NCBI GenBank assembly: GCA_964036665.1
Contig: OZ038526.1
Coordinates: 33,914,001-33,978,000, forward strand
DNA length: 64,000 nucleotides
Origin: Gordius sp. MW1
Lineage: Eukaryota; Nematomorpha; Gordioida; Gordea; Gordiidae
Direction: 5' to 3'
The notes beneath the pieces are model-generated. The model saw only the letters and a list, made by a program, of their open reading frames with translations. It had not been told where the DNA came from and did no database searches. Shown in pieces: positions 41,394 to 63,969 of this stretch. The stretch's first letter is position 1; each line of letters opens with the position of its first letter. The translations under genes were made by a program, and so were the position numbers.

Positions 41394-42549
41394 CCTCTAA
41401 ACCTGTTTGCCAAATTAAATGGTCAATTGCTCTATTATGTATTTTCTCCCCATTTACCTATGCAGACATAAAATTGCTTGAATGTGTACCCTATCAATCA
41501 TTATCAATACTATGTGTCCAATTCCAATCAGCTCAGGTCTTTCCACTTTAGTTTGCCTATAACTCGCACCTTAATCAAGCCAATTCCTAGCAAAAATTAT
41601 TTTCCCATATAATTTAGAAAAACATATTGTAAAAATGGCAATATGTAAAAAATGACTATATAAAGGGTAAATAAAAAAGATTTTTATAAATAAAAAATGG
41701 AGCAGGTGTAATGACAAAGAATATTTTGATTTTTGTAAAATTATACAATTGATAAAACTATTAAAAACGACTATGTATAAAATTATAAGGTGGTGCATCC
41801 ACTCTTTTAGCATATCTAGCCACAACAAAAATAGAAAGTCTATGTGGTTGAATTTTTTAAGTCGCAATTATATCAGGAACACCGGCGGGGACATTTAAAA
41901 GTTCATAAAAACTGCCCATTGAAAGAAGTTATTGTATATTTTAGAATAATAAAATTTTGTTATTGTAAATAAAACCACTGGAATACAATGTAAAAATATA
42001 ATATACGAGTGATGGTTTAAATATTATTACCACTTTTTACCTATATATGAAAAGTAGAACTAGTCCCTTAAAAAGTTGCATTTAGGGACGGGTTTTATTC
42101 GATTTTGCAAATAAAGTTACAAAATCTTGGGAAAACCCTTTAGCCAAATCTTGTCCAATAGTGCCCTGCCTAGTCTGAAAGACATAAAGCCCTTCCCTCT
42201 GTATATAATTATTTTTTGCACTGAATTGTAAACAAAGAATCGTTTTTTTATATAAAAACACACGTTTCAAATGGCGATTATAACATTAAAAATAAATATA
42301 AAAAACGCCGAAAGCTTATATTTCTTCTGAAGTAACATTATACGATTTGAAGCTAGATTCCTATCCGTATTTAATTTAATTTAAATTATTTACAAATAGC
42401 AATTAATTTTGTTTTAAATTTATAAGACGAATTTGATTAGAAATATAATACTTGGATAAAAATTAGGATTATTAAAATGTTGAGTGGGTCAGGCTAAAAT
42501 AAAGGATTTACTTCAAGTTCGGGTCGTTCTCAGATGACTTTAACTGTGA

Positions 42550-43015
<466 letters not shown>

Positions 43016-43481
43016 TTTTACCTAAATAATTTAAATTGGGTCAAAAATTTAGCTTGGGGGGGGGGCCAGAGAGCCCAGATTTTGCGGCCCACTTTAGCTA
43101 AGCCACTGTGTTTAATTAATATAAGTTTGTGAAGTTTTGGCAGAAAACCATTTTATTCTAATTCGGACCCCAAAATAAAATTTTAATTTTTTTTGTGAAA
43201 TCTCAAAATTTTGCTTTTTCCGTTAAAGATACTGAAATGAAATAAATGCAACAACAAAAAATTTTGCGTAAGCTAATTTATTAATGCGTCTTTATACCGC
43301 AGTAAATTTGGTCTAAACGTTAATAAAAAAATCATTGTTTTTTAATTAAACTGGAGGCGAAACCATACTCGAAAATTCCTTAAATACACATTTTCATATT
43401 ATTTTTTTTTTAAACTAATAGAAGTTTATTTCTAAATAATTGTGTTTGATACGTTTACATGCTATTAAAAAGTCCTGTGTT

Positions 43482-46377: not shown

Positions 46378-46615
46378 ATGAATTCCAAGGCAAAAATCAA
46401 AGGAATTTTAAGCATTCTATTGATTTTGATAGGTGTTATTGATGGAAGTTTAGTTAAATTAACTTATCCCAAAGCCTTTAATTCGCTCACTCTCGATTCT
46501 AGGGAATCTATATCCCGGACCGATATTGATTTGATTGAACGGAGTGGAGATGCGAGGCACCAGAGAGCTAACGTTAACGAAGTTTTAATTCGAAGATGTG
46601 GCAAGACATTTACTA
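46378..46615 (+). CDS. DOMON/Kunitz gene exon 1: signal peptide
   Basis: ATG at 46378. MNSKAKIKG has a positive n-region, ILSILLILIGVI the hydrophobic core, and DGS a plausible cleavage site. An upstream frame extension lacks an ATG, so this Met is chosen. Donor ACTA|GTAACA at 46615. The mature part ends RRCGKTFT and has no recognised domain. A 6-kb intron with several transposons follows. Confidence 0.7.
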
Positions 46616-49600
46616 GTAACAATTTTAATTTCTTATAATTTTTTTATAATTTTATTATAATTTTATTAGTTTTAAAATTTACTAACTAGCAATTACATAA
46701 TTGGATGAATTTATAATATTAATTATATATAAATATATATTTATATAAGAAATTAATCTTTCACTTCATGTTTAAGTAAGATCATAGGCGTAGCCAGGGA
46801 GTGGCAGGGAGAGGCGACTGCCCCTCTCTAAATACATAAAATCCTCAAAATTTTACAAAATTATGGCTAAAATTCCTAAAAATTATCATTTAGCTCCTCC
46901 TTAAATCATTATTGTCCCCCTCTAAATCCAATCCTGGCTACGCCCATGAATAAGATTTAATATTTAAGTATGTTATGAATTCTAAAAAATTTATAATTTA
47001 ATTTTTTTAAACATAAGGGTTTGCTTAATTTGCCGTCTTGATGTTAAAACCCAATTTTAAATCGCCTAAAAATAGGCTCTCAATTTATATATAAATGGTA
47101 GTTCCGAAAATTCTAAGCATCTGTTTTAGATTAAATCCCAAAATTCTAAATGCATTTTTATCAGAACTTTTGTTTCTGTAACACCATAGTTTAATCTAAG
47201 GTCGTAGACTAAAAGAGCCGAAAGTTGGGCGCATCCCTCAACATTAACAACTGATAAAAGCGTTAACTATTTCCACATTTAAAATTGAGCATAAAAAACC
47301 TTTTACTGTTATTCAGCTTTTTTATAAGCCAAATCATGTGAATAGATTTTCTCCAAACCTTTTTAAACATGTGTTTCCAGATGTAAAAAGAACTTTTTAC
47401 AAAACTAGCTAAGATTTTAAATGTCTGAACCTTTCTATTTTATTTCTCTTAACAACACTTAGTTCAAGTTTAAACATTTTAAATTAAAAAATTTTGAAAA
47501 AATTTAACTTAAATAAATAAATAGATAAAATTGTGCATTTTTTTTTGAAAAAAGGTTAAATATAATTATTTCCAAACCTTATTTTTCAAACAATATTCAT
47601 GAGTAAAACATAACGCTTGAGATAAAAGTGTGGAAAAACATATTTTAAAGTCATAAATTTCCCATTGTCGTCGTATAGCAAATTAGCGCTAAGTTGTGCG
47701 TGTTCATTAATCTTATGCGATAATTATGATGTACCATCGTGACATATTAAACACTTTTGGTCGTTTAACTGCTTAAATTGAGGACGGGGCCAGGTCACTT
47801 CTATTAAGAGTTTTTCTACGATATAAATGTAAAGTCATAAAAATAAACCTTTTTGTGCAAATAGATAAAATTTTAACAACTTGTTTTGACATCATTTGTT
47901 TAAGCTTCCTTAATTTTCGATTTACTCGGACAAATGTTTTTAATTTGATATAGTAAACGTTGAAAAATATAAGTTTCCACGGCAATTATTAAATTACAAG
48001 TTGGACAGGGCAGGAAGGACGGATAACCCAAAGGAACCCCTAAATTGCGCAATTTATGGTTTATGGGCTAATTTCACCAGAAAATCTTGTCTTAAATTCC
48101 CAGTTAATTTCTCATAAGATTTCTTTGCTTTTTCACTACGTGACAGATGATGTTTTTGATTTTTTTTTACATCGTTATAATATTATCTTAGCCATAGTGC
48201 AAATCTTACAGATTTCGCATATCATCATTAATAAATAATAATTTAAACTAGAAAAAATATAAAAATAACCATAAAGAAACTGGACTTTAATACAAAAAAA
48301 TTTTTATTTCAATAGATACTAGATTTTGATATACTTATGACATTCATTTTTGTTATATTTTAATCTATATACCCTTTCCCCTTAGGGCTTGTCTTAATAT
48401 CGGATTCAGATACAAATTGTGCGAATTTATCTTTGTAAAAATATCCAATTCAATTTCATGGGTCAAACTCGAATATTATTATTAATTTTTTTTGGATAGA
48501 TTAAAAGCGTTTAAATTTTTATTTAACCACTTTTGATTAAATCCAAACTTTGCTGATACCTAAATATTTAAAAAATCATACAACATTTATAAAAAAAATT
48601 GCAGCTTACAAAATCCCTGTTATGTTATGCGTCTGAAATGTAAATCTGCTGTGAATTCGAAGTTAAGACACGGCTATGTTATCACCGTAAATTTTTGCTG
48701 CCCAGCAAAATCCTATATTAAGATAAGTCCTTAAAGATATTTTTCCTAAATCATCTATTTTGTTTGTGAAATTAAAACAGCTATTTCAATATTAAAAACC
48801 CCAAACTTTTCCTCATACTAGCTAACAATTTTGCCAAATTTTATAACTCATATTAGTAGGTTGTAAAAACGGCTGGGTTGTGTTTGGTCAAAACGAAAGG
48901 TTAAACCAAAGGTTTTTGACCACAAAATCTCTGGGTTGTATATGCGACTAAGAAAAACAGACCAAAAAAGGATTGGTTTAATTTATGTTTGGTCGACTAA
49001 AACCATATGTCGACTAAACAAAACCCAGCCGTTACAACACTATGGTAAGAGATAGGCGAGAAATAAATTGAAAATTTTGAATAAATTGAATTTTTTCTAA
49101 CTTTATCAATTTAATCAAACATTCATAAGTTTATTTATTAAAAAATGTTACGATTTTTGTATTTTTTTAAATACTCAAAATTTCACTTTTATAAATTTTA
49201 GAAATTTGAGGGAATGATCTTATCAAGTTTCATTTGGAATTTAGTCTTATCCTTACCCGTGGGAGTAGCTAGAATTTTATTAAGGGAGGACCAGATGATT
49301 TTTTTAAATTTTTACCTTTATTTTATTAAAAATTAATAATTTTTTTTAATTTAGGAGAGGGGCAACCCCCCCCCCCCCCCCTGGCGACACTTTTGACCTG
49401 ACCCCATCAATTTTGTCGAACATTTATAAGTGTGGTCGATTATAAAAATTGAAATTGTTATTTTACAAATGATAATCTATATATCTTTTATTTTTATTGA
49501 ATTGTTAAATAAAACTTTTAAACGCAGATTGAAGAGATTGACCCACAAGCACCACCACCTATATTCAACGTCTTAGAAATTCCCACTTATTTCCCTATTA

Positions 49601-52600
49601 TTATACGCTTTGGAACTAGAGGGGGCAATAGTAATTTATAGAGGGACAAAATGATCATTTTTTTGAAATTTTAGCCATAATTTTAATAAATTTCAACAAA
49701 TTTTTGGATTGAGAGGGGCAGCCGCCCCTCACTGCCCCCCTGGCTCCGCCCATGACTAATTATCATTAATAATTTAAAATACTTTTAAAAATCAAAATAA
49801 TTATAAGTTTATCTTTTCTTAAAAGTTAATAATTCTAAAAAAATAATTTTTATACCAAAAGGTAGTCTATTTGGAGACAGAGAGAAAGAAACGGTAATGG
49901 TGTTATTGGTGTTTTAACCTAAACCTAATTCTTCCCATATTTTACGGGTGAATAGATCTTAAATTTAATGTGGCGTGCATGATGACAAACAAAAAAACTA
50001 ACTGTCAACATGGGTCATGGATAAAAAGCTCGAAATATCCTCACCCCCTCAGAAATTATTGCTGAGGGAACCGCCCCTGCAAACTATCTCCTCTATAAAT
50101 TTATCAGTTATAATTAATAGATATAGATATCATTTATTTTACAAAAATAAAATTTCGGGTTTATTTAAAAGTGAGAAAAAAGGTTAAGATTCTGTATCAT
50201 TCTTTTTAAAGTTTAATTAAAAGGGGAGTGGTATTTATATGAAAGTCTAAAGTTTTTTATGTTATCTATTGAAGTATAGCCATGGGCGTAGCCAGCATTG
50301 GACTTAGAGGGGGGGGGGTAATAATGATCTAGAGAGGGGCAAAATAATAATTGTTTGAATTTTGCCGATAATTATACCAAATTTTAATGAATTTTTGGAT
50401 TTAAAAGGGGGGGGGGGCAGCCGCCCCTGTTTGCCACCCCTGGGCTACGCTCATGAGTATAGCCAACACATTGTAACATTTAATTATAATTTAGATGTTA
50501 ATTTATCCAATATTTTCATTAAACATAATTTCCATGATAGTTTTGTCTTAAAACGCTTAATATTGTTTTATACAATTAAGTTTATAACATATGCCCATAT
50601 TTTAACCAATAAAAGAGTGCTTCATGGCCTTCGCCGAAGAACGCAAGCTCCAAAAATACAAGGCCCTTTTGGACTCTAGTATTTTTATCCCAATAGTTTC
50701 CTCCTGCTCAGGATCCTATGGAAAAATGGCGTTGGCTTTATTCAAAGAAATAGGCAGGCGATCCCCTCCCTCCAAATATTCCCCCGCATTTTTATTAAAA
50801 AATCAATAGCCATCTTAATTGCAAAATTTAATTTCAAATCTTTTTTGGATTCCTGGCTCATATAATGTTTTTTTAATATCATTACTATATATTTGTTCTA
50901 TTTAATATTATGTATAAATATATATCAATAAACACATTTCATCTTTAAAAAAAAAAAAAAAGACAAGCTAAAATTAATTGCTATGCAATTTATGGGCTCG
51001 TTTTGGTTGTCCGTCCGGCCTGTCCTGTCCGTCCTGTCCAACTTGTAATTTTTAATAATTGCTGATGGAACTTAAACTGGATTTTGATGGCTGTGGTGGA
51101 CTTATGCTTCTGTAAAAGACTTTTATTTTGCTTTCGAAAATAGACTAGCTAATGACCGCTGGTTGGCTTAAATTTATTCAACCTCCGAACCCAAATTCCA
51201 TTATTGCTTTTGCGCCCGACTGATTTTTTATATTTTAAATTAGAAAAAAAATTTGGGGTACAATGGGGGTGGAGGTGAAAGTTTAATAGTAAAAATTAGC
51301 TCATCTTCTGACGCCATAGGTTTAAAAACAAACATATTCCCCCCTTTAATTATTATTATCATTGCTCTAATTTTTCTTATTACCTGTCAAACTCATTGCG
51401 CGACCTCTTTGTATCTTACAAACACAATCCTGGATTTGTCAAAGGAAAGCTTTCAAAAAGGGAAAATATTGCTTTTGTGATCGATTGAACTTTAAATTAT
51501 GCTTATTTGATAGGATTTAAATTCTATTTTATTAGATTTTTTTCTCAAAATATACTATTTTTTTATAGGATAATTTTTTAATTTTTTTCCAAATTATTAT
51601 AAAACCAAAACATATTGAATTTATGAGCAGGCTTAGAGCCTTGTAACTGGATTTTATAGAATTTTACTTTCCATAGTAATTTTCTGCAAAAAATCTTTTT
51701 TTTGTTTTTTACATGATTACATTTTCAACAAATTTTAATTACGGTAAAAATTGGGAAAAATTCGGTATTTTTTCATAAAAATAAAAAATAAACTGTTTTT
51801 TATATTTTATTTTTCGAGTCCCTTCATAGTAAGTGTGCATAGAAAAGTGTTGTGTTTTATATTTTTCCCCACCTTTTTTAAAGAGGTGGAAGGAAAAAGT
51901 TATAAAAAGGCGGGCGCGTTAAAGTCTGTGACTGTTGAACGATTAGTCGAAAGACCTGCATTAGGTGCAGGTAGGACAAAGGGAATGAGAACGGTATAGG
52001 ACCCAGGAAGAAATTAAAAAATAAAAACTAATTGTTTTATTTTGCAAAGCCCCACAAACTTTTTTAATGCATAAATTATATTAATTAAATCCCTTTTATA
52101 GTTTCTATTAACTTTTCCCCTAAATTATCACACATATTTTCCTCTGTAGCTCTTTAAAGTTTGTTTTGTTCGATTTCTATTTTTAACAAAACTAATCATT
52201 AACCTAGAAAAAAAACCAAGTTAATTCGTGGGGGATTAGAAATAAACTGTTGATAAATGGGAAAAAACTATAATCTTGATTATTTTTCAATGGCAAAACA
52301 TTTAAAATGTTTTCAAGCCTAATTAGGTTCCGTGCAATTTTCCCCTCTTAGTCTACCATTGACTTTTAAGATCCACATATCTAAATTACATCCAATGGTC
52401 TTAGATTTTATAACATATTGTACAATATATTTTAGAAAGTGCTTCTAAGATAACGACTTTTTAACCAGGTTACATTAAATAAGCTCAGACTAAAACTTTA
52501 ATTTAAAAAAATAATATAATTTTGGTTTTAGACTTAATAATATTAACGAGATTAGAAGTAAAATCAACAAACACTTGGATAGCTTTAATTAAACCATTTT

Positions 52601-53477
52601 ATATAATATTTTGTTTACTAAATTTTTTGCTTTTTATTTCGTTATATTAATTTGTGCGATTTTATAGCTTACGATCCCTATACCATACTGGCACAAGATA
52701 TCAATCTCAATATAACATGGGATATGACGAATTATATAAAGGTAATTTAATTTAAAAATAAATAAATTTAAAAAATACTATTTGCTTTTAAAAAAATAAA
52801 ATTAAAGTTAGCCATTTAAAAACATATAATTTTACATTTTTTAACATCTTAACCAGTTTTACAAAAGTTTATATATCTTTTAAAATCCATAAGTTTGGTG
52901 TTTCTATGGAAGTTTGGGACCAAAGAAATCCATGGATCGTTTTTTCATTGACTGAAAATCATAAACTACTCCCTAGTCCTGAGTATATTTAATTCATTTA
53001 AAAGTTTTTTTAATTAAAAAGATAGATTTTATGTTTTTATTTTGAATTTTACATTAACTTATTTTTACATGTTTTTTTCTAAGTACGACATCGATTGAAA
53101 TTAAAATGCCAACGGAATTAAGTTGTCACCCGTATTGTATACTAAAAATGTCAGCTGTTTTTCCGAAAAATTCCGAACTCGACCCGGCTCAGTTTCAAGA
53201 CCAAGCCGGAACGAGTCGGGAAAGTCTGAGACAAGGCAATTTCGACATTTCTTCATCATGCGCTCGCTTTATAGTTGTTGAAGGTATGTTTAAATTGATT
53301 AAATAAATAGATATAAATAAATAATTAGATGAAGCGGCTATGAATTGCTCAAATAGAGGAGCTTATAGCAAAAGTCCTCAAGGAGAGTCGAAATGTTTAT
53401 GTGATTGGTTAAGATCTGGAAAATATTGCCAATATGAAGGTTTGTATAATCACAACATATATATATATTCATTTATT

Positions 53478-53529
<52 letters not shown>

Positions 53530-56500
53530 AGATGAGTGTTATCAAGCATCTGATTGTTCTGGGAATGGAGACTGTGTTGACATTTTGAAAGGCTTTCCAG
53601 CTGATTCCCATATGATGACTCCACGAGGACAATGCTTTTGCCACGATGGCTGGTTCGGCCTAAAATGTCGCAGAAGTACATTTATTCGTAACTTTACATA
53701 ACTCCATTTATTCCTTTATTTACTTAGGATCTATGCCCCAAACTATTAATCCAGCAAATATGGCTCAAGCCCGTTTAGGACCGGGTTATCAATTATTTTG
53801 GAAAATATTAAAAGTAAAATTGAAATAAATTCTTTTTTTTCGATATAAAATTTAATTTTATCTTGTTAATTAGAGAACGGGAGAAATAGAAGTTATCATA
53901 ATGGCGGATACAAACTCTTGGGTCATCTTAGGGTGGTCACCTAAAAGTAACTTTTTAAAAATAATATTTCAAAATTACATTTTTCTTTGTAAACTAAAAA
54001 ATTTTAATATTTAATTATTTAATGTTAAAAATTAAATGAGTTGAACAAATATATAAAACTTTATCAACAGCTTTAAAAATTACTTTTTTTTATGTTATAA
54101 GTAAATTTAAATTTTATAGTAAGGCGTGGAGAGTGTGTTTATAAAATAGACGATCATTTGTCCAAATTAGCCGCAACAAATTCAAACGAAACAAATCAAC
54201 CAAGTAAAATTTATTGAAAATCAAAAATTATTATATTTATAAATTAAAATGATAAACAAATCTTATGAAATTTTTAAACATTTGACCAATACCTATTAGG
54301 CGTTATAAAAATTTAAAACTTCCTATCGGTAAAAAATTATGATTGTTTTTATTAAATATTATTCTGCTCCTGGCCTATTGAATTACTAGGAAGCATATAA
54401 GCAATTTTTAAAAAAGCTTTAGAGCTTTATTGGTTTACTTGATTTCCTAAGGAATTTAATTGTATCAATAAAAAATTTTAAAAAATACGATTTTCTTTTT
54501 TTTCATCTTTAGATTATACACCAAGCTTTAATAGGGTTAAATATACATTTTTTAAAACCAAAATAAACGAAACAATAAAATAAAAAAAAATTTAGTTGTG
54601 TCTTACCTATTAAACTTCAATCGTGCCATATTAAATTTTTCTTATAAACGCGTTTGACATTTTATGAATTCAACACCAAATTTACCTAATTAAATAAATT
54701 TAATAATTTTTGTATAAAATTACACCAAATTTACTGTACACAAATCGCCGTTATATTGATATTAGCAGGGCTTCAAAAATGAAGCGACGCGCTTATTAGG
54801 ACGCAGCTATGCTTTATTAAGTTTTTACCTTTTTGCATCACTTTAGAATCGCATCTCAAGCCCCCCCCCCTAATATTACATATCAAAGGACTTATTTATA
54901 CATAATCATAAAATTAACTCTGGACATATTTTGCTTATAAAGTTTTATTTGCTATGCAATTTATGAGTTCGCTTTTGGCTGTCCGCCCTGTCCAACTTGT
55001 GATTTTTCAGAAATTGCCGTGGAAATTTATACGGGTTTTTAATGGCTGTGGAGTGTGGACTTATGCTCCTGTAAAAGACTTTTATTTTGCTTTAGCAAAT
55101 AGACTAGCTAATAACCCCTGATTGGCTTTACTTTTTTCGACCTCGCCCGAGCACAAATTTCATTATTGTTTTTGTGCCCGATTGATTACCTTTATTAATG
55201 AATTCCATTGGGCAACTTGACGAGTTATATTAATTTTCGTTACTATAAGTTTAATGTTTTCCCTATACAATTCAAAAAATTACTTTTTTTTGGTTACTTT
55301 AAGATGAATCTGAAGAAAACCGATGTTATGATATGGTTTTTGGAGCGGCCAACGGAGATAAAAACCGAGTTTTCGATTGGTTTTCTCCTGGTTCAAGCAC
55401 ATTTAGTTTAGATGATGCTGCACCAGATGAAACCTTTAAATTTTATGCCGTAAGATCTCCACCTGGCAGGGATAGTCTCCTGGATGCTAGTACCCACGAA
55501 GAAGACGGTGTCACGTTCGTCTATTTTAAACGCAAATTGAGAGGTAGGATAGCTATACATTTTTTTGTTACAAACGTAAAAATAAATGAATTAATGGGTT
55601 TGAAAGTAAAAATTAAAAGAATTTTGTCTTTTTTTGAGTTAATACACTTATTTGTTATAAATTTATTTGATATATCATGTATAGTTAGTGGCATGTGTCA
55701 TGCATTATCTTTTAGTTTGGACCTTAATTAATTCTATAATGGATTTTTACACTAGTAGGCACATGAATTTTGCATTAAAAACATTTGGGTTGGCTTTGAA
55801 GCAACCTAACATTGCACAACTCCGCCAAGCGTTTTTTTGTAATTATAGACTATAAATCGTTCAAAAAATAAGGGTTAACTGAATTATTTTGCTTATATCG
55901 CTGCGTAAAAAATAATTTCTGGACTAGAATTTAAATTATCCATATTCAAGTCGGGCTCAGTTTGATATATAAAAAGATTTTTAGGTCGGGTTTGGGTTGT
56001 GAATAGATCAAATTTCGGGGACTTTATTATAAGCATAACAATAAATCTTTAATCTTTTTTTCGTAGGTTAAGCTAAACATAATGACTTCTGACTTGGATG
56101 GTAAATCCATTTCCATCCCAAGCTTTTATTGGTATAACTTGGTTATTTAGAAATGACTTGTCAAACATTAGCCGTAAATTGTAGTTTTATGGCGTTATTT
56201 GATTTAAGTGGGTTTATTCAACTCCAAATTTTTCTTTATAATTTTTTTATAACTATAGAAAGTCTCATGGACCCCTTTGTAATATTATTAATATATATAT
56301 TAATATATGGCAATCCAATGCGTTTACTATTCGATAAAAATAACAAAAGCCTAGTTTTTATTAAAAATACCGTTCAATTAGCAATCAAGTCAAACAATTG
56401 TTTGCACTAAAAATTCACAAATTTTAATCTTTCATGGTTGAATATGAAAGTTATCATGTGACTTTAGCGTATGATATGGCTGATATCGAAATCAAAAACG

Positions 56501-59500
56501 AAACAATGCGAGTCTTATGGGCCAAAGGAAGACCCTTACAAAAGTACTTATAAACTCACAGATGTTCAATTCATTGTATAAGAAAGTTGTAGTATTAACG
56601 GCCTCGTCGAATCGATAAAAAAGTCTAGTTAGATGAGCCCATATTCGAGTATCAATTTGACAAGTCCATTAATAAAACCAACTTTTCTTGAAAGTACATA
56701 TCTTTAGTTAGTGTTGTAAAAACGGCTGGGTTTTGTTTGGTCAACCTTTGGTTATAGTCAACTAAACATAAATAACCAACGGTTTTGTGGTCTGTTTTTC
56801 TTAGTCGCATCAAAGGTTTTTTGGTCAAACCTTTGGTATGTTTATATTTAGTCGACTAAAACCAAAGGTCGACCAAATAAAACCCAACCGTTTTTACAAC
56901 ACATACCTCTTTTCAATTGTTAATTGCTATGCAACTTTTTAAAGAGCCTTTCTCCAACTATTTATTTTTTTTCTTCAAAATTATGTGAGTATTATTATAA
57001 AAATTGATGAGTTTAATTTTTAGTACAATCATTTTTTAGTTCTGTTGGTGGTTTTTCGTTCATGGAAGCAGACGATATTTTCATGTTACGTGACTTATCG
57101 ACTTTGGATTATGGCTTCACTGATATTAACTTTATAGGTAATAAAATAGTGTCTAATATATATTAAAAACAAATTATAAAAATTCCTATTAAAGTAAAAA
57201 ATGTGCAAAATTATTGGTTGCTTGTATAGTCTGGCTTTATATGAACTAGAGCTTGATGTTTGATTTTCAAATTAATGCTACCTTTGTATGCATGGGCGTA
57301 GCCAAGGGAAGGCAGGGAAGGGCATTGTATGCATGAAACTCTGAAAATGTTGGACATATCCCATCGTCTTTCAAATCTAATTTGGCCAATTATTTATTTA
57401 TAACATAACCTAAGCTGAGAAAAAAATAAAGCGTGGATCAACTAAAGTAAGGTCTTAAGCATGGGCGTAGTCAGGATTCGAATTAGAGGGCGGCAATAAG
57501 GATTTAGGGAGAAGCCAAAATTTTTTTTTTCTTTAATTCTAGCCATAATTTGATAAAAGTTCTACGATTTTTTGGTTAAGAGAGGGGCACCGCCCCTCCC
57601 TGCCACCCCCTAGCTCCGCCCATGGTCTTAATATTCATTTTTAAAAAGGCATAGTGGGAAACCTAGCTAAAAAAGTATCGCATAGTTTATAAAAGGTCCC
57701 TTAATAAATAAAAATGATTTTATAAAATGGCCCATAATTTTTTAAGCAAGTTTTAAGAAACAGTCGACCCACGTTAAATAATACAGCCTTTATATAAAAT
57801 CTAAGTAACAAGCCACAATAAACTTTTTCGGTGTAGAAACATAAAAGGGGATTTATTTCATTTTAGGGGTATTTAAATAAAATTTAATGAGAGGAAATGG
57901 TAAAATTTTTCGCATTAATTGCATTATTCATATCAATGGCAAATTTATAGAATTTCATATACAGACCGCGGATGAAATTTATTTTATATTTCTATGTCAG
58001 GTGATTACGAAAATTACCTAAAGGGTCTAGAAAATTCTAATTCAACTTTTGAAAGAATTAATAACAGCCCTTTACCCACCACCATATACGATCGTCAAAA
58101 GTTATCGACTGAAGTACTATATGAAACTATAAGGCCGCATACAACTACCTCTTATGTGAGCCCAACGCAATTTCAAAATACACCGACCGAACCTGAAAGT
58201 GTAAAAACAGCAGATTGCGGAATAACTACGTTCGGGTACCCCGAAAGTTGCAAGGTCGAAAGTGGTAATTGCGCTTATCACGTTAAAATAATGCGAGACA
58301 TCACGGTTCGTAACAATGGGCGGACCATAGTTCGATTCGAAATATCATCATTTAAAAATATCAGTGATTTTGCACTCGATCGAGAAGGGAAACGGATAGT
58401 GCCGAATGATTTTTCCGGAATTTTGTTTACTCGAGACCCTGAAAGAGTAAACAAATATTCAGATTGATAAAAAGATTTTTTTACGTTTTATTGCCAAACA
58501 GCAGCCATTTTCACTTTGGTATTGAGATATGATCATTTTTGAATTAAATCCTAAGAAGCTTAGAATAAATGTTTTAGCTGTTTAATGTTTGTAAAACCGC
58601 GTCGTAAAGGCAGAGTCTTTTCATAAAACATTAGCTTTTGTAGGGTGTTTAATAATATTTGAAAAGTGTCAATCATTGGAATTTCTTTGAATCTGGAATA
58701 TATTCTACACCCCTCTCTTTCCTATCTTCACCCCTAAACAAACTCTTTAATTTGGTTTTGCTTGAATTCATTAAATATAAAATCTCTTAATAGTAAAAAA
58801 TAAGTGTTTATATATAAGCACAAGGTTTTTATGGGCATATATGCTATAATTTTGTCTCGGCCTATGTAAAGTGAAGAATATATCGGGTTTTGTAACTATA
58901 ATAAATAGCAAAGTTTTATGTTTAATTAAAATTACTAACTTACCAATTGAAAATATAAATTTTAATAATGTAATAATAAAATATTTTTTATTTCATATTT
59001 TAGAATAGCGCTGATGTCATATTGGCATGGAGGGACCCTTACTCCTTACCCATAATCTCTGACATGTAAGCAATTGATCTAAAGCAACCCTAATCGATAA
59101 TAAAAATTTGTAACATATTAGATAGATTAAATATAAATTGATATATGCCTATAAGAACAAAAAATAATAGAATTTCAATGTTAAAACTTTAGACTGGCAT
59201 TAACATGGGCGTAGCCAAGTTTTGAATTTGGGGGGGGGGCAGATTTAAAAAAAACCGACATCCAAAAATTTTCCTGAGAGCAAAAGAAAAATTTCCGGCG
59301 ACCAAAAAAAACTCCCCATTAGGCAGTGGGGGCAGCCGGACCCCCTGCCCCCCCCCCCTGTCTAATCAGGGGGGGGGGCAAAACATATTTTTTTTTTTAA
59401 TTTCTAAGGGTTTTTGTATTGAATTTCTTTTTTAATTAGGGGGGGGGCCCCCCCCTGCCTACGCCCATGGGCATTAATGTGCTACATTATAAATAAAAAC

Positions 59501-62500
59501 GAGGATGACCATGTTTTGAGTTGGACTAAATTTTATTATATTTTACAACTTATTTACAAATTCTATTTAAATCAAGAAAAATAAAAGGTGCAATAAAAAC
59601 GCTGTCATAGCTAATACTATAATACAAATTAATTTAAAGGTTAACTTAAACTAGTAGACTAAGATATAAACCAATTCGTGTATCGATTAAAGCAGTTATG
59701 ATAAAATTAAATTTATTATAAACCCTTTTGCCGATCACACACATTCTGCAAAAAGGTTACAAATTTGTCAATTAAAATTGTCATAACATGGGTTTACAGA
59801 GGCGAAATAATAATTCCTAAATTTAGCCCAAATGTCTCTATATATGAATTTTTTTTTAGATTTTTCAATCTTTCATCGGCTATGGATCTGACAATTTAGA
59901 TTAAGAAACATTTTTTCTGCAATTTTCCATTTTTTTCCTTATGATGGGTCATAATTGCCCTAAACATAGCCTTCCTTTTCGCTCTACCTATTATATTAAT
60001 CCAAATCCACATTTTAAACAAATATTTATAACATAATAGACTGTTTCATAAGTCAGAAAGTTGAATGAATATTTAAAAATCGGAGCCTTGCATTTTTTCA
60101 CAAATTATATATTTTTTCTTTATTATCTATCAATATAACAACTTCCAAAACTTTTTGCGTTATTTAGGTTTACAGCTAATCAAGGTACCAGCTTGTACAT
60201 GGACACAACGCAAGATATTTTTGAAGCGACTCTTAGAAATTATCAAGTACCAGCACTTGCTCAATCCGAATATGAATCGGATCAATCTAATAATCAAACA
60301 AACGCGGTGCGTACTTAAATTTGTCATCATTATTTTCTACGTATGGGCTGGGCCCCCTCTTTTGTGAAAAATGTTCTCCGTTCTGTTCACCTTGGGTTTA
60401 TATCAGAAAATTACAATTATATTCGAGTGACCATTAGTTGGTTTTAATTTTTCTGACTCCATCCAACCCCAAATTCTGTTATTTCTTGTGCCCCGAATGA
60501 TTACCTTAATAAAATTTTTTTTGAAGCTTTTAACTTGTTAATTTATAAGGGAAAACTATGAAACTGGCTAAAGTTTATAAATAAATGATGATCTTAGTTT
60601 ACAATTAATTTGGCTAAACTCAGCCTGAGGCCAAAATCTCTTTTTATTTTAGGTGATTATTCTTGTGAATCATTTTGAGCTCGGCCCACTTGTTGGTTCA
60701 TGATAAATAACTACAATTATGCCTTAATATTTTTTGATTGTTTGATTTTAGAGTCGATATCATCAAAGGAGCCTATGATTTTATTAAAAATATTTATGGG
60801 CGTAGCCAGGATTTAACAAAGGAAGGGCGGGGTGAATATATTTAATTTTTAGTTGAAAATATATTTATGAATATTTCAAATATATTCTCGGATTAAGGAG
60901 GGCCCTGTAATAGTTTTGGATTATCATAATTCAAAATAGTATCACTAATATTTCAAATTTAACCCTAATATTAATATAAAAAGTAATATTAATAATATTA
61001 ATGGTAATTACGAAAATCATATTTACTTTTAAGGAAGGAGATGATTCAAGACAGGTTAGGAAGGTGGTACTTTCATTTTCTCGCCTCAGTGATATAGAAA
61101 CGCCATCGTCAACTCCGCGGAGGACTGCAAATAATAGGAATTTGTCGGTACAGGACCAAGCTAAGTTGGATAGGACTTTACAAGATGTGGGAATTAGCGA
61201 TGTTGGAATTGATGATTGTTTTTACTTTTTCAAACCTTCCGATAGAATATATGACCCCTTGAAATATCTCAAGCAATTTGGAAGTCGTAAAAATTTCACC
61301 GGGTCTGAGAGAGAAAATTTTTACCCTTACTTTGAACCTGTCAGTTTGGCTCCTATTTGTTTATCCGCTTGCGTTCCTGGTTAGTAACAATAAATCAATT
61401 AATAAATAGTTAATAATTTAATAATATTTAATATTGTTTATTAGAAATCCCGAGCTTAGTAAATTTTGTCAACAACAACAATCCAACCAATCTCGGGGAC
61501 ACTCCAGCCTCATACAGGCGAGATGTAAGTGTAACAAAACTTTATTATCACTTACAAATTTAAGTTATAATTTATATTTTGTTTTATAGATATATTTTTT
61601 TTATTAATCATAAAGTTTTACTAATAAATATATTCGCTTTTAACATTACTTACAAACAATAGAATAGCAAATTTTACAATTAAAACAAAGAAGTAATCAA
61701 CATACTCTCAAAAATATGCTTTTCTTTTGCCATATCAAAATTATTAAAAAAATTTATTTTTATATATTATATTTGAAATTTGGTAAATATAATCGCTTTT
61801 TAGTGGAGGCAAAGGGCCCGCGTTTCTGGGCAATCAAAAGCTCAGCAATTCGATTTTCCTCGACGATATATACAAGGTAAAGATGAATCTACACTCAGTC
61901 TAAAAGCCCATTCCGATCCTGCCGTTAAATCTAACCTATTATCTTCACAAGGTTATACAAGATAATTTTAATTTTTTGAAATTTAGACAATATTATACCA
62001 ATTAAAAATTCTGAAAAATTATATAAATTTAACTATAAAATAGTGAACAATCTAACAAAACCAAGAATTTTATTGATATATGTGTTAAATTTTTCAATCA
62101 TTAAAAATTTATAAGTAGTCGAGAAGTATGCCTTAGTGTTAACAAATGTGTTTTAGTCTATGGTTAGAGCAATAGAGATGATATAGCAGGTATTTAAGAG
62201 AAAATCATAAATAATGCCTGAAATTTAAAATATATTACCTAAAAATTCTTTCGTTTTTAAATTACATTCAATAAAGATCTTTAGCCACAAATTGTAATTT
62301 ATAGATGAAGACAATGCTACTGTAAAATACATTACGGAATCGGAATACAAACAATTAGACGCGAATAACACGCATCTGGGCAATGGTCAGAACGGTTCCA
62401 AATTTTTACCAGCGAATCATTATGATTCATTCCATGCCAGGGGAGCTAGACTTAGAGTCAATGGAGAATTTATTGATCCAGCTATAAAAATTCACTCTGC

Positions 62501-63969
62501 AGATGGTACTTGCATACTTAAACTTATTTTTGAATATTGATATTGTAAATCACATGGGGTCTATGAGACCCCAATGAGGTTATTAAAATATATAAATTCG
62601 AATAGCAATACAACATTATACCACCTATATCAACAATTAATTGCTATGCAATTTATCGGCTCGCTTTTGGTTGTCCTATGTCCTGTCCTGCCTTATATGA
62701 GATCGATCCAAAAAAATTAATTAATATACCTTTCTTAATAAAATTGATTAGGGTTAAGTTTAGTTATCTAAATTTAATGGCGTATGAGTCTGAAATTATT
62801 GGCTGCAATAAAACTTATTATTTTATATACTGCATATAACAATCTACACAGTTAGTGTTGACGTAATTTTGTACCACATATGAGCATAAAATTTTGATTT
62901 ATTTTATCTAGAATTTGAGGAAGATAAGCCCCAAACCATCTTTTGTACGCATACGCCCGATCCTGGACCTTGTTTTCAATACGTTCCTAAATGGTTTTTC
63001 GATCAAAGCACAGGTTCTTGTATTCAATTCGCTTATGGTGGCTGTCGGGGTTCTTTAAACAAATTCAATTCAAAGGATGAATGTCTTAGCATATGTGCCG
63101 CCGTGATAGCCAGAATTAATGATAGAAAAAAACCTAATTCCGCTTCTACTACAATTTTTACAATAATTACTAAGAATACCCAGGCATCCGAAGGCACAGA
63201 AAGTAGTGATCAGGGGCAAACCAACGATATATATACTGACAGACAAACTATACCTAATATAATACAAACTTATCGAAAATTAATTTTGGGTTCTAGTAGT
63301 ACGCAAACTAATCCTTCATCACCAGATTTTATACAAAATCCCAGCCCTAACACCATATTATCGGAAGAAATAACTGAAAAAATCTATCCAGAAATTTCTA
63401 ATTCTAGCATTTTTGAAGCTTCAGATTTCACTAGTGACTTTTCTTCAATCACTACACAATCGCGCAATATCATAGACAAATCTACGGATGCTTTACACGA
63501 TCTTAAAGACACACAAAACACTGTTTCTTATTACGTGGAAGGTATCAAATTAGATCCAAGTTTATATGATTCCACTGCAGAACGGTCCAAAAAACCGGAC
63601 ATCGAATTTATAGTAAACAACACAACTTTATTTGCTCCTGTATATACAGAAAAGACCTTAGACCCTATAGGGGATAACCCTAATTCCGCTTCTATAGTTA
63701 AAATTATTGATGACTACATAACTCATGGAGATATAAATGGTCAAGGGGAGACCAATAATCGCATAAGGTCCGCTATTTTGTCATCTCTAGAAACCGGTAG
63801 TTCACTTCCCATACCAGAAACTAATGATAAATCTATTACCGCGGGGGTATCTACCATTGGTGACAACTCTTCAAGCTATCCCATGCAAACTGAGGCTTCG
63901 AGAAATTACGAATTGCATTGGAAAGTTAGAGCCAGGGTTAGCCAAACACCATCAACCTCAGGTTTTTGA
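46378..63969 (+). CDS. Secreted EGF-DOMON-DOMON-Kunitz protein, about 18 exons, about 1,280 residues
   Basis: Exons: 46378-46615, 52668-52741, 53084-53283, 53329-53439, 53532-53675, 53728-53813, 53874-53946, 54120-54203, 55304-55543, 57024-57137, 58001-58446, 59004-59065, 60168-60306, 61034-61379, 61445-61524, 61804-61951, 62305-62505, 62912-63969. All introns are GT-AG and phases agree at every junction except exon 2 to exon 3. Order: signal peptide (residues 1-24), unknown Cys-containing region, EGF-like 1 (about 175-205), EGF-like 2 (about 210-255), DOMON 1 (about 265-455), DOMON-like 2 (about 500-750), Kunitz (about 940-990), Ser/Thr-rich tail. DOMON modules bind haem or sugars and Kunitz modules inhibit serine proteases, so an extracellular matrix or cuticle role is a reasonable inference only. 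I do not recognise a named gene. Confidence 0.8.
46783..46948. mobile_element. Short inverted-repeat element with 8-bp duplication
   Basis: Ends CATAGGCGTAGCCAGG and TCCTGGCTACGCCCATG. Flanks AGTAAGAT (46775-46782) and AATAAGAT (46949-46956), 7 of 8 identical. It lies in intron 1 of the DOMON/Kunitz gene. Non-coding. Confidence 0.8.
47965..48055 (-). repeat. Partial ATTGCTATGCAAT-family repeat
   Basis: On the minus strand: AAATTGCGCAATTTAGGGG, a GTCCTTCC microsatellite, then CCAACTTGTAATTTAATAATTGC and GGAAACTTAT. It matches the first half of the copies at 50978 and 54943. Confidence 0.5.
48857..49043. mobile_element. MITE with long inverted ends (TAGTGTTGTAAAAACGG family)
   Basis: Left TAGGTTGTAAAAACGGCTGG and right CCAGCCGTTACAACACTA are inverse. 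Within, TTTGGTCGACTAAAACC and its inverse alternate. Nearly the whole 187 bp can fold back. The best copy is at 56709-56903. Target duplication not resolved. Confidence 0.65.
49258..49385. mobile_element. Short inverted-repeat element, degraded
   Basis: Left CGTGGGAGTAGCTAGAATTT, core, and right poly-C run followed by CTGGCGAC. It belongs to the CATGGGCGTAGCC family, with the right terminus lost. Confidence 0.45.
49611..49754. mobile_element. Short inverted-repeat element, left end truncated
   Basis: The right end CCCCTGGCTCCGCCCATG (49737-49754) and the family core are clear (TTTTGAAATTTTAGCCATAA, TTGAGAGGGGCAGCCGCCCC). The left start TTTGGAACTAGAGGGGGC lacks the terminal 13 bases. Confidence 0.6.
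50281..50455. mobile_element. Short inverted-repeat element, exact 8-bp duplication (reference copy)
   Basis: Ends CATGGGCGTAGCCAGCATTG and CTGGGCTACGCTCATG. Flanked by identical AGTATAGC (50273-50280 and 50456-50463). G-tract GGGGGGGGG inside the left end and poly-G, then GCAGCCGCCCC, inside the right. It is 175 bp and non-coding, in intron 1 of the DOMON/Kunitz gene. Confidence 0.85.
50622..50961 (+). mobile_element. RLE-type retrotransposon, short 3' fragment with poly-A
   Basis: The frame 50624-50809 starts MAFAEERKLQKYKALLDSSI and runs to SPPSKYSPAFLLK. It is almost identical to 23543-23710 of the nested copy. It ends TTCATCTTTAAAAAAAAAA with about 15 A residues (50947-50961). It is severely 5'-truncated, lacks the RPD motif and is recent in appearance. 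Confidence 0.85.
50978..51180 (+). repeat. Dispersed ~190-bp repeat (ATTGCTATGCAAT family), full copy
   Basis: Starts ATTGCTATGCAATTTATGGG, then a GTCCGTCC/CTGTCC microsatellite, CCAACTTGTAATTTTT, GGACTTATGC, TGTAAAAGACTTTTATTTTG and AATAGACTAGCTAATGACCG. It follows the RLE poly-A tail within 20 bases. Non-coding; class unknown (SINE or MITE). Confidence 0.7.
51185..52660. other. Intron 1 (3' part) of the DOMON/Kunitz gene, no further feature
   Basis: AT-rich with short frames only (51253-51480, 51751-51999) that lack family resemblance and splice support. Confidence 0.4.
52668..52741 (+). CDS. DOMON/Kunitz gene exon 2
   Basis: Acceptor TTTTATAG and donor AAAG|GTAATT. In phase with exon 1 it reads TYDPYTILAQDINLNITWDM then TNYIK. 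It ends in phase 0, while exon 3 as read needs two leading bases. Either a tiny exon is missed, or there is a sequencing error or a different upstream join. Confidence 0.5.
53084..53283 (+). CDS. DOMON/Kunitz gene exon 3
   Basis: Acceptor TTTTTTTCTAAG and donor GAAG|GTATGT. The open frame reads MPTELSCHPYCILKMSAVFP ... SSCARFIVVE, with three Cys. The frame is set by the next exon. The ATG at 53106 (AAAATG) could also serve as the start of a shorter transcript. Confidence 0.6.
53329..53439 (+). CDS. DOMON/Kunitz gene exon 4: EGF-like module 1
   Basis: Acceptor ATAATTAG and donor GAAG|GTTTGT. It encodes DEAAMNCSNRGAYSKS ... CLCDWLRSGKYCQYE. The C...C-x-C...C spacing is that of the second half of an EGF-like module, with its first Cys in exon 3. 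Confidence 0.8.
53468..53527 (+). repeat. (TTTA)n microsatellite forming the 3' splice-site tract of exon 5
   Basis: About 14 units of ATTT/TTTA end four bases before the AG of exon 5 (AAAG at 53528-53531), taking the place of the polypyrimidine tract. Branch-site and tract length must vary with repeat number. Confidence 0.9.
53532..53675 (+). CDS. DOMON/Kunitz gene exon 5: EGF-like module 2
   Basis: The acceptor TTTATTTAAAG lies directly after a (TTTA)n microsatellite. Donor AGAA|GTACAT. It encodes DECYQASDCSGNGDCVDI ... CFCHDGWFGLKCRR, a complete six-Cys EGF-like module with the typical CxC....G..C end. Confidence 0.85.
53728..53813 (+). CDS. DOMON/Kunitz gene exon 6: start of DOMON 1
   Basis: Acceptor TTACTTAG and donor AAA|GTAAAA. 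It reads SMPQTINPANMAQARLGPGY then QLFWKILK. GYQLFWKI is the first core strand of DOMON modules. Confidence 0.8.
53874..53946 (+). CDS. DOMON/Kunitz gene exon 7: DOMON 1 core
   Basis: Acceptor TTAATTAG and donor AAAA|GTAACT. It encodes RTGEIEVIIMADTNSWVILG then WSPK. The (I/V)E(V/I)...A.T.SWV..GWS pattern is the most characteristic DOMON stretch and makes the domain call secure. Confidence 0.85.
54120..54203 (+). CDS. DOMON/Kunitz gene exon 8
   Basis: Acceptor TTTTATAG and donor CCAA|GTAAAA. It reads RRGECVYKIDDHLSKLAATN then SNETNQP in phase with both neighbours. It is a loop insertion in DOMON 1 with a potential N-glycosylation site (NET). Confidence 0.65.
54943..55140 (+). repeat. Dispersed ~190-bp repeat (ATTGCTATGCAAT family), full copy in intron 8
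   Basis: TTTGCTATGCAATTTATGAG, GGCTGTCCGCCCTGTCCAAC, TTGTGATTTTTCAGAAATTGCC, GGACTTATGCTCCTGTAAAAG, TTTTATTTTGCTTTAGC and ATAGACTAGCTAATAACC align with the copy at 50978. Confidence 0.7.
55304..55543 (+). CDS. DOMON/Kunitz gene exon 9: DOMON 1, second half
   Basis: Acceptor TTACTTTAAG and donor AGAG|GTAGGA. It encodes NRCYDMVFGAANGDKNRVFD, then WFSPGSSTFSLDDAAPDETF, and ends GVTFVYFKRKLR. D(M/I)V.G...G...V.D and G.T.V.F.R.L are the later DOMON motifs. Confidence 0.85.
56709..56903. mobile_element. MITE with long inverted ends (TAGTGTTGTAAAAACGG family), best copy
   Basis: TAGTGTTGTAAAAACGGCTG at the left and CCGTTTTTACAACAC at the right are perfect inverses. Further in, GGGTTTTGTTTGGTC pairs with GACCAAATAAAACCC. 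The middle keeps TTAGTCGACTAAAACC. At 195 bp it is almost entirely self-complementary. It lies in intron 9 of the DOMON/Kunitz gene. Confidence 0.75.
57024..57137 (+). CDS. DOMON/Kunitz gene exon 10: end of DOMON 1
   Basis: Acceptor AATTTTTAG (a second AG lies 16 bases on, but breaks the frame) and donor ATAG|GTAATA. It reads VQSFFSSVGGFSFMEADDIF then MLRDLSTLDYGFTDINFI. Confidence 0.7.
   Translation, partial: YNHFLVLLVVFRSWKQTIFSCYVTYRLWIMASLILTL
57291..57323. mobile_element. 33-bp single-ended remnant of the CATGGGCGTAGCC family
   Basis: CATGGGCGTAGCCAAGGG and GGCAGGGAAGGGC only. Flanks are TTTGTATG and ATTGTATG (57283-57290 and 57324-57331), 7 of 8. It looks like an insertion that later lost its other end, or an aborted insertion. 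Confidence 0.45.
57460..57624. mobile_element. Short inverted-repeat element with 8-bp duplication
   Basis: Ends CATGGGCGTAGTCAGGATT and CTAGCTCCGCCCATG. Flanks GTCTTAAG (57452-57459) and GTCTTAAT (57625-57632), 7 of 8. It is in intron 10 of the DOMON/Kunitz gene. Confidence 0.75.
58001..58446 (+). CDS. DOMON/Kunitz gene exon 11: linker and start of DOMON-like 2
   Basis: Acceptor TCTATGTCAG and donor AGA|GTAAAC, chosen because the next exon continues in phase. The first about 70 residues are Ser/Thr/Pro-rich (ETIRPHTTTSYVSPTQFQ). Then comes DCGITTFGYPESCKVESGNC and RTIVRFEISSFKNISDFAL, with four more strands ending ILFTRDPER. Three Cys are spaced closely before the strand region. Confidence 0.75.
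59004..59065 (+). CDS. DOMON/Kunitz gene exon 12
   Basis: Acceptor CATATTTTAG and strong donor AT|GTAAGC. It reads NSADVILAWRDPYSLPIISD, matching the DOMON pattern of a hydrophobic strand followed by a loop and D. Confidence 0.75.
59204..59469. mobile_element. Inverted-repeat element, exact 8-bp duplication, internally repeated
   Basis: Ends CATGGGCGTAGCCAAGTTT and CTGCCTACGCCCATG. Flanked by identical GGCATTAA (59196-59203 and 59470-59477). At 266 bp it is longer than its relatives and has four G/C-tract shoulders, as if one element inserted in another. Intron 12. Confidence 0.85.
60168..60306 (+). CDS. DOMON/Kunitz gene exon 13
   Basis: Acceptor TTATTTAG and donor GCG|GTGCGT. The first codon is completed from exon 12. 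It reads FTANQGTSLYMDTTQDIFEA then TLRNYQVPALAQSEYESDQS. A following D..QDI fits the DOMON core. Confidence 0.7.
60795..60915. mobile_element. Inverted-repeat element, right end lost
   Basis: ATGGGCGTAGCCAGGATTTA at 60796 and a core ending GGATTAAGGAGGGCCCTG. The right terminal repeat is not recognisable. Intron 13. Confidence 0.45.
61034..61379 (+). CDS. DOMON/Kunitz gene exon 14: end of DOMON-like 2
   Basis: Acceptor TTACTTTTAAG and donor CCTG|GTTAGT. It encodes VRKVVLSFSRLSDIETPSS, where F.R.L.D is the terminal DOMON motif, then DDCFYFFKPSD and ENFYPYFEPVSLAPICLSAC. Three Cys suggest disulphides with exon 11. Confidence 0.75.
61445..61524 (+). CDS. DOMON/Kunitz gene exon 15
   Basis: Acceptor TTTATTAG and strong donor GAT|GTAAGT. 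It reads EIPSLVNFVNNNNPTNLGDT then PASYRRD. Linker, no domain. Confidence 0.65.
61804..61951 (+). CDS. DOMON/Kunitz gene exon 16, two in-frame donor choices
   Basis: Acceptor GCTTTTTAG. It reads WRQRARVSGQSKAQQFDFPR then RYIQ. A donor CAAG|GTAAAG at 61876 and another CAAG|GTTATA at 61951 leave the same phase, so the 75-bp difference (25 residues GKDESTLSLKAHSDPAVKSN and on) could be optional. RQRAR-type basic runs look like a linker or a processing site. Confidence 0.6.
62305..62505 (+). CDS. DOMON/Kunitz gene exon 17
   Basis: Acceptor AATTTATAG and donor GATG|GTACTT. It reads DEDNATVKYITESEYKQLDA ... GEFIDPAIKIHSAD. No domain recognised. NAT is a potential glycosylation site. Confidence 0.65.
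62635..62700 (+). repeat. Partial ATTGCTATGCAAT-family repeat
   Basis: CAATTAATTGCTATGCAATT, TATCGGCTCGCTTTTGGTTG and TCCTATGTCCTGTCCTG match the first 65 bases of the 50978 copy. Intron 17. Confidence 0.6.
62912..63969 (+). CDS. DOMON/Kunitz gene exon 18: Kunitz module and Ser/Thr-rich tail
   Basis: Acceptor TTTTATCTAG. After EFEEDKPQTIF comes a complete Kunitz module with six Cys spaced 8, 15, 7, 12 and 3: CTHTPDPGPC, FQYVPKWFFDQSTGSC, IQFAYGGC, RGSLNKFNSKDEC, LSIC. The residue after the second Cys (P1) is Phe, which in this family points to chymotrypsin-like targets. The YGGC and FDQSTGSC words are canonical. About 290 residues rich in Ser, Thr, Asn and Pro with no Cys follow, ending at TGA 63967-63969. 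A CAG|GTTTTT just before the stop could instead be a donor, so the end is not certain. Confidence 0.85.

Follow-up and report, generated by a model that had tools for sequence, protein, structure and literature searches.

A Gordius DOMON Gene with a Kunitz Domain, Predicted to Continue into a SEA Domain and a Membrane Anchor

Described DOMON Architectures

The DOMON domain has been described in several combinations with other extracellular modules. DOMON/EGF and LPMO_10 sequences sit on an early branch of an LPMO tree (PMC6950343). The gene considered here has the same three domain types, and its relative on contig C1 of the same genome (see below) fits that group. The group, as described in the text consulted, comes with no mention of Kunitz, SEA or a transmembrane (TM) region; the present gene, compared with it by description and not by sequence, is set apart by a Kunitz domain and by an LPMO_10-like domain that is degenerate and lacks the first histidine. 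DOMON also occurs together with SEA, TIL and EGF domains, as stated in an extract of PMC3197665, where the preceding sentence cites Aravind 2001. The association of DOMON with SEA and EGF is common to those proteins and the present one, and the C1 relative additionally has a Cys-rich module with weak VWC and TILa matches, both below cut-off; the difference is in the remaining module, which is TIL there and Kunitz here.

A DOMON ectodomain and a C-terminal TM helix are also found in the Acropora DOMON protein of transcript B5, whose topology is predicted as type I transmembrane and for which the text consulted (PMC3204972) reports no Kunitz or LPMO_10; this comparison is by description only. 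The C. elegans chondroitin proteoglycan T10E9.3/CPG-22 (PMC11632948, PMC8418075, both in excerpt; DOMON is listed in the former) is likewise an extracellular DOMON protein and differs, again as described, in having DOMON only. Knickkopf, a DOMON protein of the apical surface, is built as DM13-DM13-DOMON (PMC11354708, in excerpt), whereas DM13 is not among the Pfam families listed for the pieces of the protein considered here. A Trichinella DOMON protein is named among molting-related ones in PMC6757440.

The original prediction held that no animal protein with the order EGF-EGF-DOMON-DOMON-Kunitz had been described. This holds for the pairing of DOMON with Kunitz, of which no description was found in the literature searched, as represented by partial texts, and has to be narrowed for the rest, since DOMON with SEA/TIL/EGF (PMC3197665) and with EGF plus LPMO_10 (PMC6950343) had been reported. 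Overall, the module set is known but little studied, and the Kunitz module seems to have been added in the present gene.

The Locus and Its Exon Chain

The window, i.e., the whole 64,000-nt stretch analysed (C8:33914001-33978000, in a searched genome of 212 Mb on 12 contigs), contains 20 exons of the gene on the plus strand, rebuilt from splice sites and phase agreement (Table 1). The joined frame contains no internal stop codons, and phases match at 18 of the 19 junctions. With the exons found further downstream, the chain grows to 26 exons, 24/25 phase-consistent junctions and 2,210 amino acids without a stop. The preferred reading, to which a probability of about 0.6 is given, is that of one multi-exon gene, whose product would be a type I membrane protein with at least ~2,200 residues and would belong, as a divergent member, to a family that includes relatives on C1 and C7, with the Kunitz domain held in a phase-1 block (exons 17-21) between DOMON 2 and SEA.

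The earlier count had 17 junctions, 16 of them in phase, and the present recount enlarges it to 19. Our guess is that the two exons absent from that count are exons 3 and 11, the latter being the end of DOMON 1: it adds the C-terminal DOMON strand and also restores the phase between its flanking exons. The signal peptide claimed previously is confirmed as a hydrophobic stretch in exon 1 (Kyte-Doolittle 2.31).

Table 1. Exons of the gene and their content. Positions are those of the window and are counted on past 64000 for the downstream exons.
Feature	Position	Strand	Content
Exon 1	46378..46615	+	Signal peptide; start of N-terminal LPMO_10-like domain (GSLVKLTYP)
Exon 2	52668..52741	+	N-terminal domain (INLNITWDMTNYIK); 74 nt, phase 1 in, 0 out
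Exon 3	52857..52982	+	N-terminal domain; phase clash with exon 2
Exon 4	53084..53283	+	End of N-terminal domain (MPTELSCHPYCIL ... SSCARFIVVE)
Exon 5	53329..53439	+	EGF-like module 1, 4 Cys
Exon 6	53532..53675	+	EGF-like module 2, 6 Cys
Exon 7	53728..53813	+	Start of DOMON 1
Exon 8	53874..53946	+	DOMON 1 (EIEVIIMADTNSWVILGWS)
Exon 9	54120..54203	+	DOMON 1
Exon 10	55304..55543	+	DOMON 1 core
Exon 11	56468..56543	+	DOMON 1, C-terminal strand (ADIEIKNETMRVLWAKG)
Exon 12	57040..57137	+	Inter-DOMON linker
Exon 13	58001..58446	+	Linker; start of degenerate DOMON 2
Exon 14	59004..59065	+	DOMON 2 (ADVILAW)
Exon 15	60168..60306	+	DOMON 2
Exon 16	61034..61379	+	End of DOMON 2 (DDCFYFFKP ... ICLSACVP); 3' intron matches C1 phase-1 intron
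Exon 17	61445..61524	+	Linker
Exon 18	61804..61951	+	Linker
Exon 19	62305..62505	+	Linker
Exon 20	62912..63961	+	Kunitz and S/T-rich stalk; phase 1 at both ends; donor 63962; stop 63969 if intron retained
Exon 21	67150-67413	+	In phase with exon 20; no Met
Exon 22	67654-67826	+	SEA
Exon 23	68055-68116	+	SEA
Exon 24	70323-70537	+	SEA
Exon 25	71407-73034	+	S/T-rich stretch (S+T 0.28); hydrophobic helix
Exon 26	73647-73910	+	Basic tail
Further candidate exon downstream of exon 26	75168		

Relatives in the Same Genome

When the DOMON region of the window protein was used as a genome query, a single weak place, on C1, was found outside the window (E 0.0086). A frame-by-frame genome scan with the DOMON model listed five places, three of them at the C1 locus and none inside the window; therefore, the DOMON of the window becomes visible only after exon joining. 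DOMON loci are also present on C3 and C4, and the match at C3:5306644-5306982 lies in one open frame inside what appears by eye to be a long inverted repeat.

The C1 relative comprises 18 exons on the minus strand (C1:818550-809056; the p13/p14 junction excepted), coding for LPMO_10-like, EGF, EGF, DOMON, DOMON and SEA domains, in this order, and for a C-terminus that is hydrophobic by eye; a Kunitz domain was looked for in it and none was found. The whole protein scores 139 bits with DOMON, in three stretches, and stays under the cut-off with LPMO_10 (21.0 vs. 23 bits) and SEA (20.1 vs. 26.4). Its N-terminal domain taken as a piece exceeds the LPMO_10 cut-off (27.6 vs. 23) and has a weak BIM1-like match (20.7 vs. 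27); EGF module 2 taken alone passes the EGF_2 cut-off with 23.2 bits. Comparison of the same N-terminal domain with solved-structure sequences gave no relevant match (best E 0.11). The genome search with LPMO_10 returned no matches despite the C1 locus; the probable reason is that several exons share the coding of this domain.

The window protein gives three significant, collinear BLASTP matches with the C1 protein (9e-17, 5e-13 and 1e-4). Nine of the 25 window introns lie no further than one alignment column from a C1 intron, with an identical phase in all nine, and the other 16 have no C1 counterpart in the alignment.

With the C1 protein as the genome query, a third member was found on C7 (37% identity, E 6.5e-12), along with two further weak places on C2 (E 0.014) and C3 (E 0.018). 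The C7 relative (C7:7866641-7861815, minus strand) begins with six phase-consistent exons harboring the N-terminal domain, two EGF modules and DOMON 1; its Pfam matches are weak and under the cut-off (BIM1-like E 0.002, 19 vs. 27 bits; DOMON E 0.034). The order LPMO_10-like, EGF, EGF, DOMON is common to the window protein and both relatives. DOMON 1 of C7 is followed by a single open frame of ~800 codons, N/S/T-rich and mucin-like, and no SEA-type motif showed up when 20 kb of downstream sequence were scanned for it.

DOMON and EGF-Like Modules

The first DOMON of the original prediction is a clear one (PF03351, 50.9 bits in the protein up to 63969 and 44.6 as a piece, cut-off 32.7), with no relevant match among solved-structure sequences (best E 0.91). 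The second DOMON-like region falls below the same cut-off with 16.7 bits as a piece and is recognized by its alignment with DOMON 2 of the C1 relative (z 4.2, 1/500 shuffles). A similar picture was obtained for the two EGF-like modules: all EGF models stay under their cut-offs with the window sequence (as a piece, EGF_2 19.3 vs. 22.1 and EGF_Teneurin 20.2 vs. 24.3), and module 1 has only four cysteines, but both modules are homologous to those of the relatives (z 11.0 and 17.5, respectively).

Continuation Downstream of the Window

Exon 20 has a phase-1 donor at 63962 (CAG/GTTTTTG), not strong in consensus, by use of which the stop at 63969 can be skipped, and each of the six junctions that link exons 20 through 26 is phase-consistent. 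The 150-aa piece obtained by joining exons 22-24 matches SEA (PF01390) above the cut-off (30.1 vs. 26.4 bits, E 5.6e-7). It includes the sequence FREGSVIVD, which we take to be a putative SEA autocleavage site of the GSVVV type. For the extended protein, Pfam was run on separate pieces, which take in a smaller part of exon 25. The top hydropathy peak of the extended protein (Kyte-Doolittle 2.84 at aa 2056) belongs to exon 25, and the tail between this helix and the end of exon 26 contains 24 K/R vs. 13 D/E. Since an S/T-rich stretch is thus combined with the most hydrophobic helix and a basic tail, the protein is predicted to be membrane-anchored.

The original prediction ended the protein at 63969 and took it for a secreted one. 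An EGF-DOMON-Kunitz protein stopping there, with a separate SEA/TM gene downstream, is unlikely: the open frame does reach the stop, the sole cost being that the donor at 63962 goes unused, but the C1 relative likewise has SEA after DOMON 2, two SEA introns align with the same phases, and exon 21 is in phase and has no Met of its own. A description as “secreted” is not preferred, given that SEA and a TM helix come next. The in-phase downstream exons encode SEA, TM and a cytoplasmic tail, so the end at 63969 is disfavoured as the main form and kept as a possible soluble isoform arising through intron retention. The modules seen earlier are real, and the model that contained them covered only the first two thirds of the gene.

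Oppositely oriented repeat copies, in introns 20 (64183-66026) and 23 (68250-69994), flank exons 21-23; their outer 438 nt are 97% complementary.

The sole phase mismatch in the window separates exon 2, which leaves phase 0, from exon 3, which requires phase 2. As the corresponding C1 intron is of phase 0, the clash could be taken as a trace of decay in a pseudogene copy. That the whole locus is such a copy is decidedly unlikely in view of ~2,210 codons without a stop and of splice sites that are consistent elsewhere; besides, a slip in the assembly would give the same picture at exons 2 and 3.

The Kunitz Domain and Its Exon Block

The Kunitz module, previously called a perfect six-Cys one, is confirmed: it has six cysteines, scores 60.4 bits with PF00014 in the protein up to 63969 and 67.7 bits as a piece (cut-off 21), and matches inhibitors among the solved-structure sequences. 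Kunitz and TIL modules represent different inhibitor folds. The genome contains at least 70 Kunitz matches; therefore, a Kunitz domain alone is unremarkable here. Among the 70 places listed, none is at the C1 or C7 relative loci, and the window domain has no similarity to the C1 protein (z 0.2, 194/500 shuffles).

The failure to find a Kunitz domain in either relative and the abundance of Kunitz matches in the genome would also suit a merger, in the chain as rebuilt, of at least two adjacent genes, one with DOMON and the other with Kunitz. Such a merger is very improbable. Exons 16-20 contain a single in-frame Met, residue 1316, well past the Kunitz domain; therefore, the Kunitz exon requires the exons upstream of it. 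In addition, the junctions from exon 3 to exon 26 are all phase-consistent, and the Kunitz domain is flanked by DOMON 2 and SEA, whose order is conserved in the C1 relative. Hence, the Kunitz and DOMON exons look like parts of one gene.

Within this one gene, intron 16 is located no more than one alignment column from a phase-1 intron of the C1 relative, which is directly followed there by the SEA exon that matches window exon 22. Therefore, exons 17-21, with phase 1 at both ends, occupy the place of one C1 phase-1 intron. Exon 20 itself is of phase 1 at both ends, as shuffled modules usually are. The block with the Kunitz domain seems to have been gained in the window gene, as opposed to being lost in the C1 relative. 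The P1 residue is presumably Phe, as read from GPC-F by BPTI numbering, which makes a chymotrypsin-like target likely; judging by its sequence, the domain, with the framework kept, is predicted as a likely inhibitor of a chymotrypsin-like serine protease.

The N-Terminal Domain

The earlier domain list missed an N-terminal domain of ~190 aa, which is related to LPMO_10/BIM1-like domains via the C7 relative. No Pfam family was detected in the first 190 residues of the window protein at E<=10. Direct comparison with the C1 domain was non-significant (z 0.79, 106/500 shuffles; z 0.87, 393/2000 shuffles). An exon-anchored comparison with C1 gave z 4.3 (0/2000 shuffles), a signal coming mostly from exon 2 (P 0.0007), with z of 2.4, 0.0 and 1.2 for exons 1, 3 and 4 singly; exon 2 and its C1 counterpart p2 are alike in length and in both phases. 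The match to the C7 domain is clear (z 8.4, 0/2000 shuffles), and the C1 and C7 domains match each other strongly (z 23.8). Thus, the homology of the window domain runs through C7.

The copper-binding histidine brace is formed by the N-terminal histidine and one further histidine, as given in the extract of PMC10952591. The window sequence GSLVKLTYP aligns to GHIRLTYP of C1 and GHLRLTFP of C7, and the N-terminal histidine is absent from it. Provided that the signal peptide is cleaved at the corresponding place, as presumed here, the window copy should lack the brace; the missing first histidine points to binding, not oxidation, for this domain. That it still binds copper and gives the protein a redox activity, such as the relatives retaining GH(I/L)RLT(Y/F)P may have, is hardly probable for all the homology, as GSLVKLTYP would leave no N-terminal histidine after such cleavage.

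Proposed Protein and Its Possible Role

In the predicted order, the signal peptide is followed by the degenerate LPMO_10/BIM1-like domain, two EGF-like and two DOMON modules, Kunitz, an S/T-rich stalk, SEA, a second S/T-rich stalk, the TM helix and the cytoplasmic tail. The N-terminal part would be a binder of glycan or matrix with no copper-based redox activity, the Kunitz loop would act on the cell surface by blocking a serine protease, and self-cleavage of SEA may decide whether the ectodomain is held or shed. The best guess is a protease inhibitor that binds matrix, is tethered to the membrane and may be shed; its expression, topology, inhibitory action, ligand and shedding are presumed. 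The gene is read as a variant of the DOMON/EGF/LPMO_10 group (PMC6950343) that bears a Kunitz domain and is probably non-catalytic.

A broader scenario, tentative and on balance doubtful, can be outlined as follows. An animal family of membrane-tethered proteins would join an LPMO-type copper domain and a possibly haem-binding DOMON as a surface redox unit, of which the window gene lost the copper site and became a SEA-shed protease inhibitor after a phase-1 Kunitz block had entered a phase-1 intron. If this is true, a symmetric exon block brought a protease-inhibitor module into a modular surface protein that was losing its catalytic histidine, and the C1 and C7 relatives, in which this histidine is kept, are candidates for animal copper proteins that are membrane-bound and combine the copper domain with DOMON.

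Other Features of the Window

No Rfam matches were found at gathering scores within the 64-kb window. The clade markers Col_cuticle_N and Chitin_bind_4 had no match, and neither did the controls, which makes them uninformative on the organism; the domains and introns point to an animal. Positions 42530-43040 are a simple repeat (LFIY units), open for 155-166 codons in three minus-strand frames and not a gene. The minus strand also carries retroelement-like frames, recognized by eye, at 848-2574 and 14042-17767, which include reverse-transcriptase/RNase H-like ones and a second, LINE-like set.
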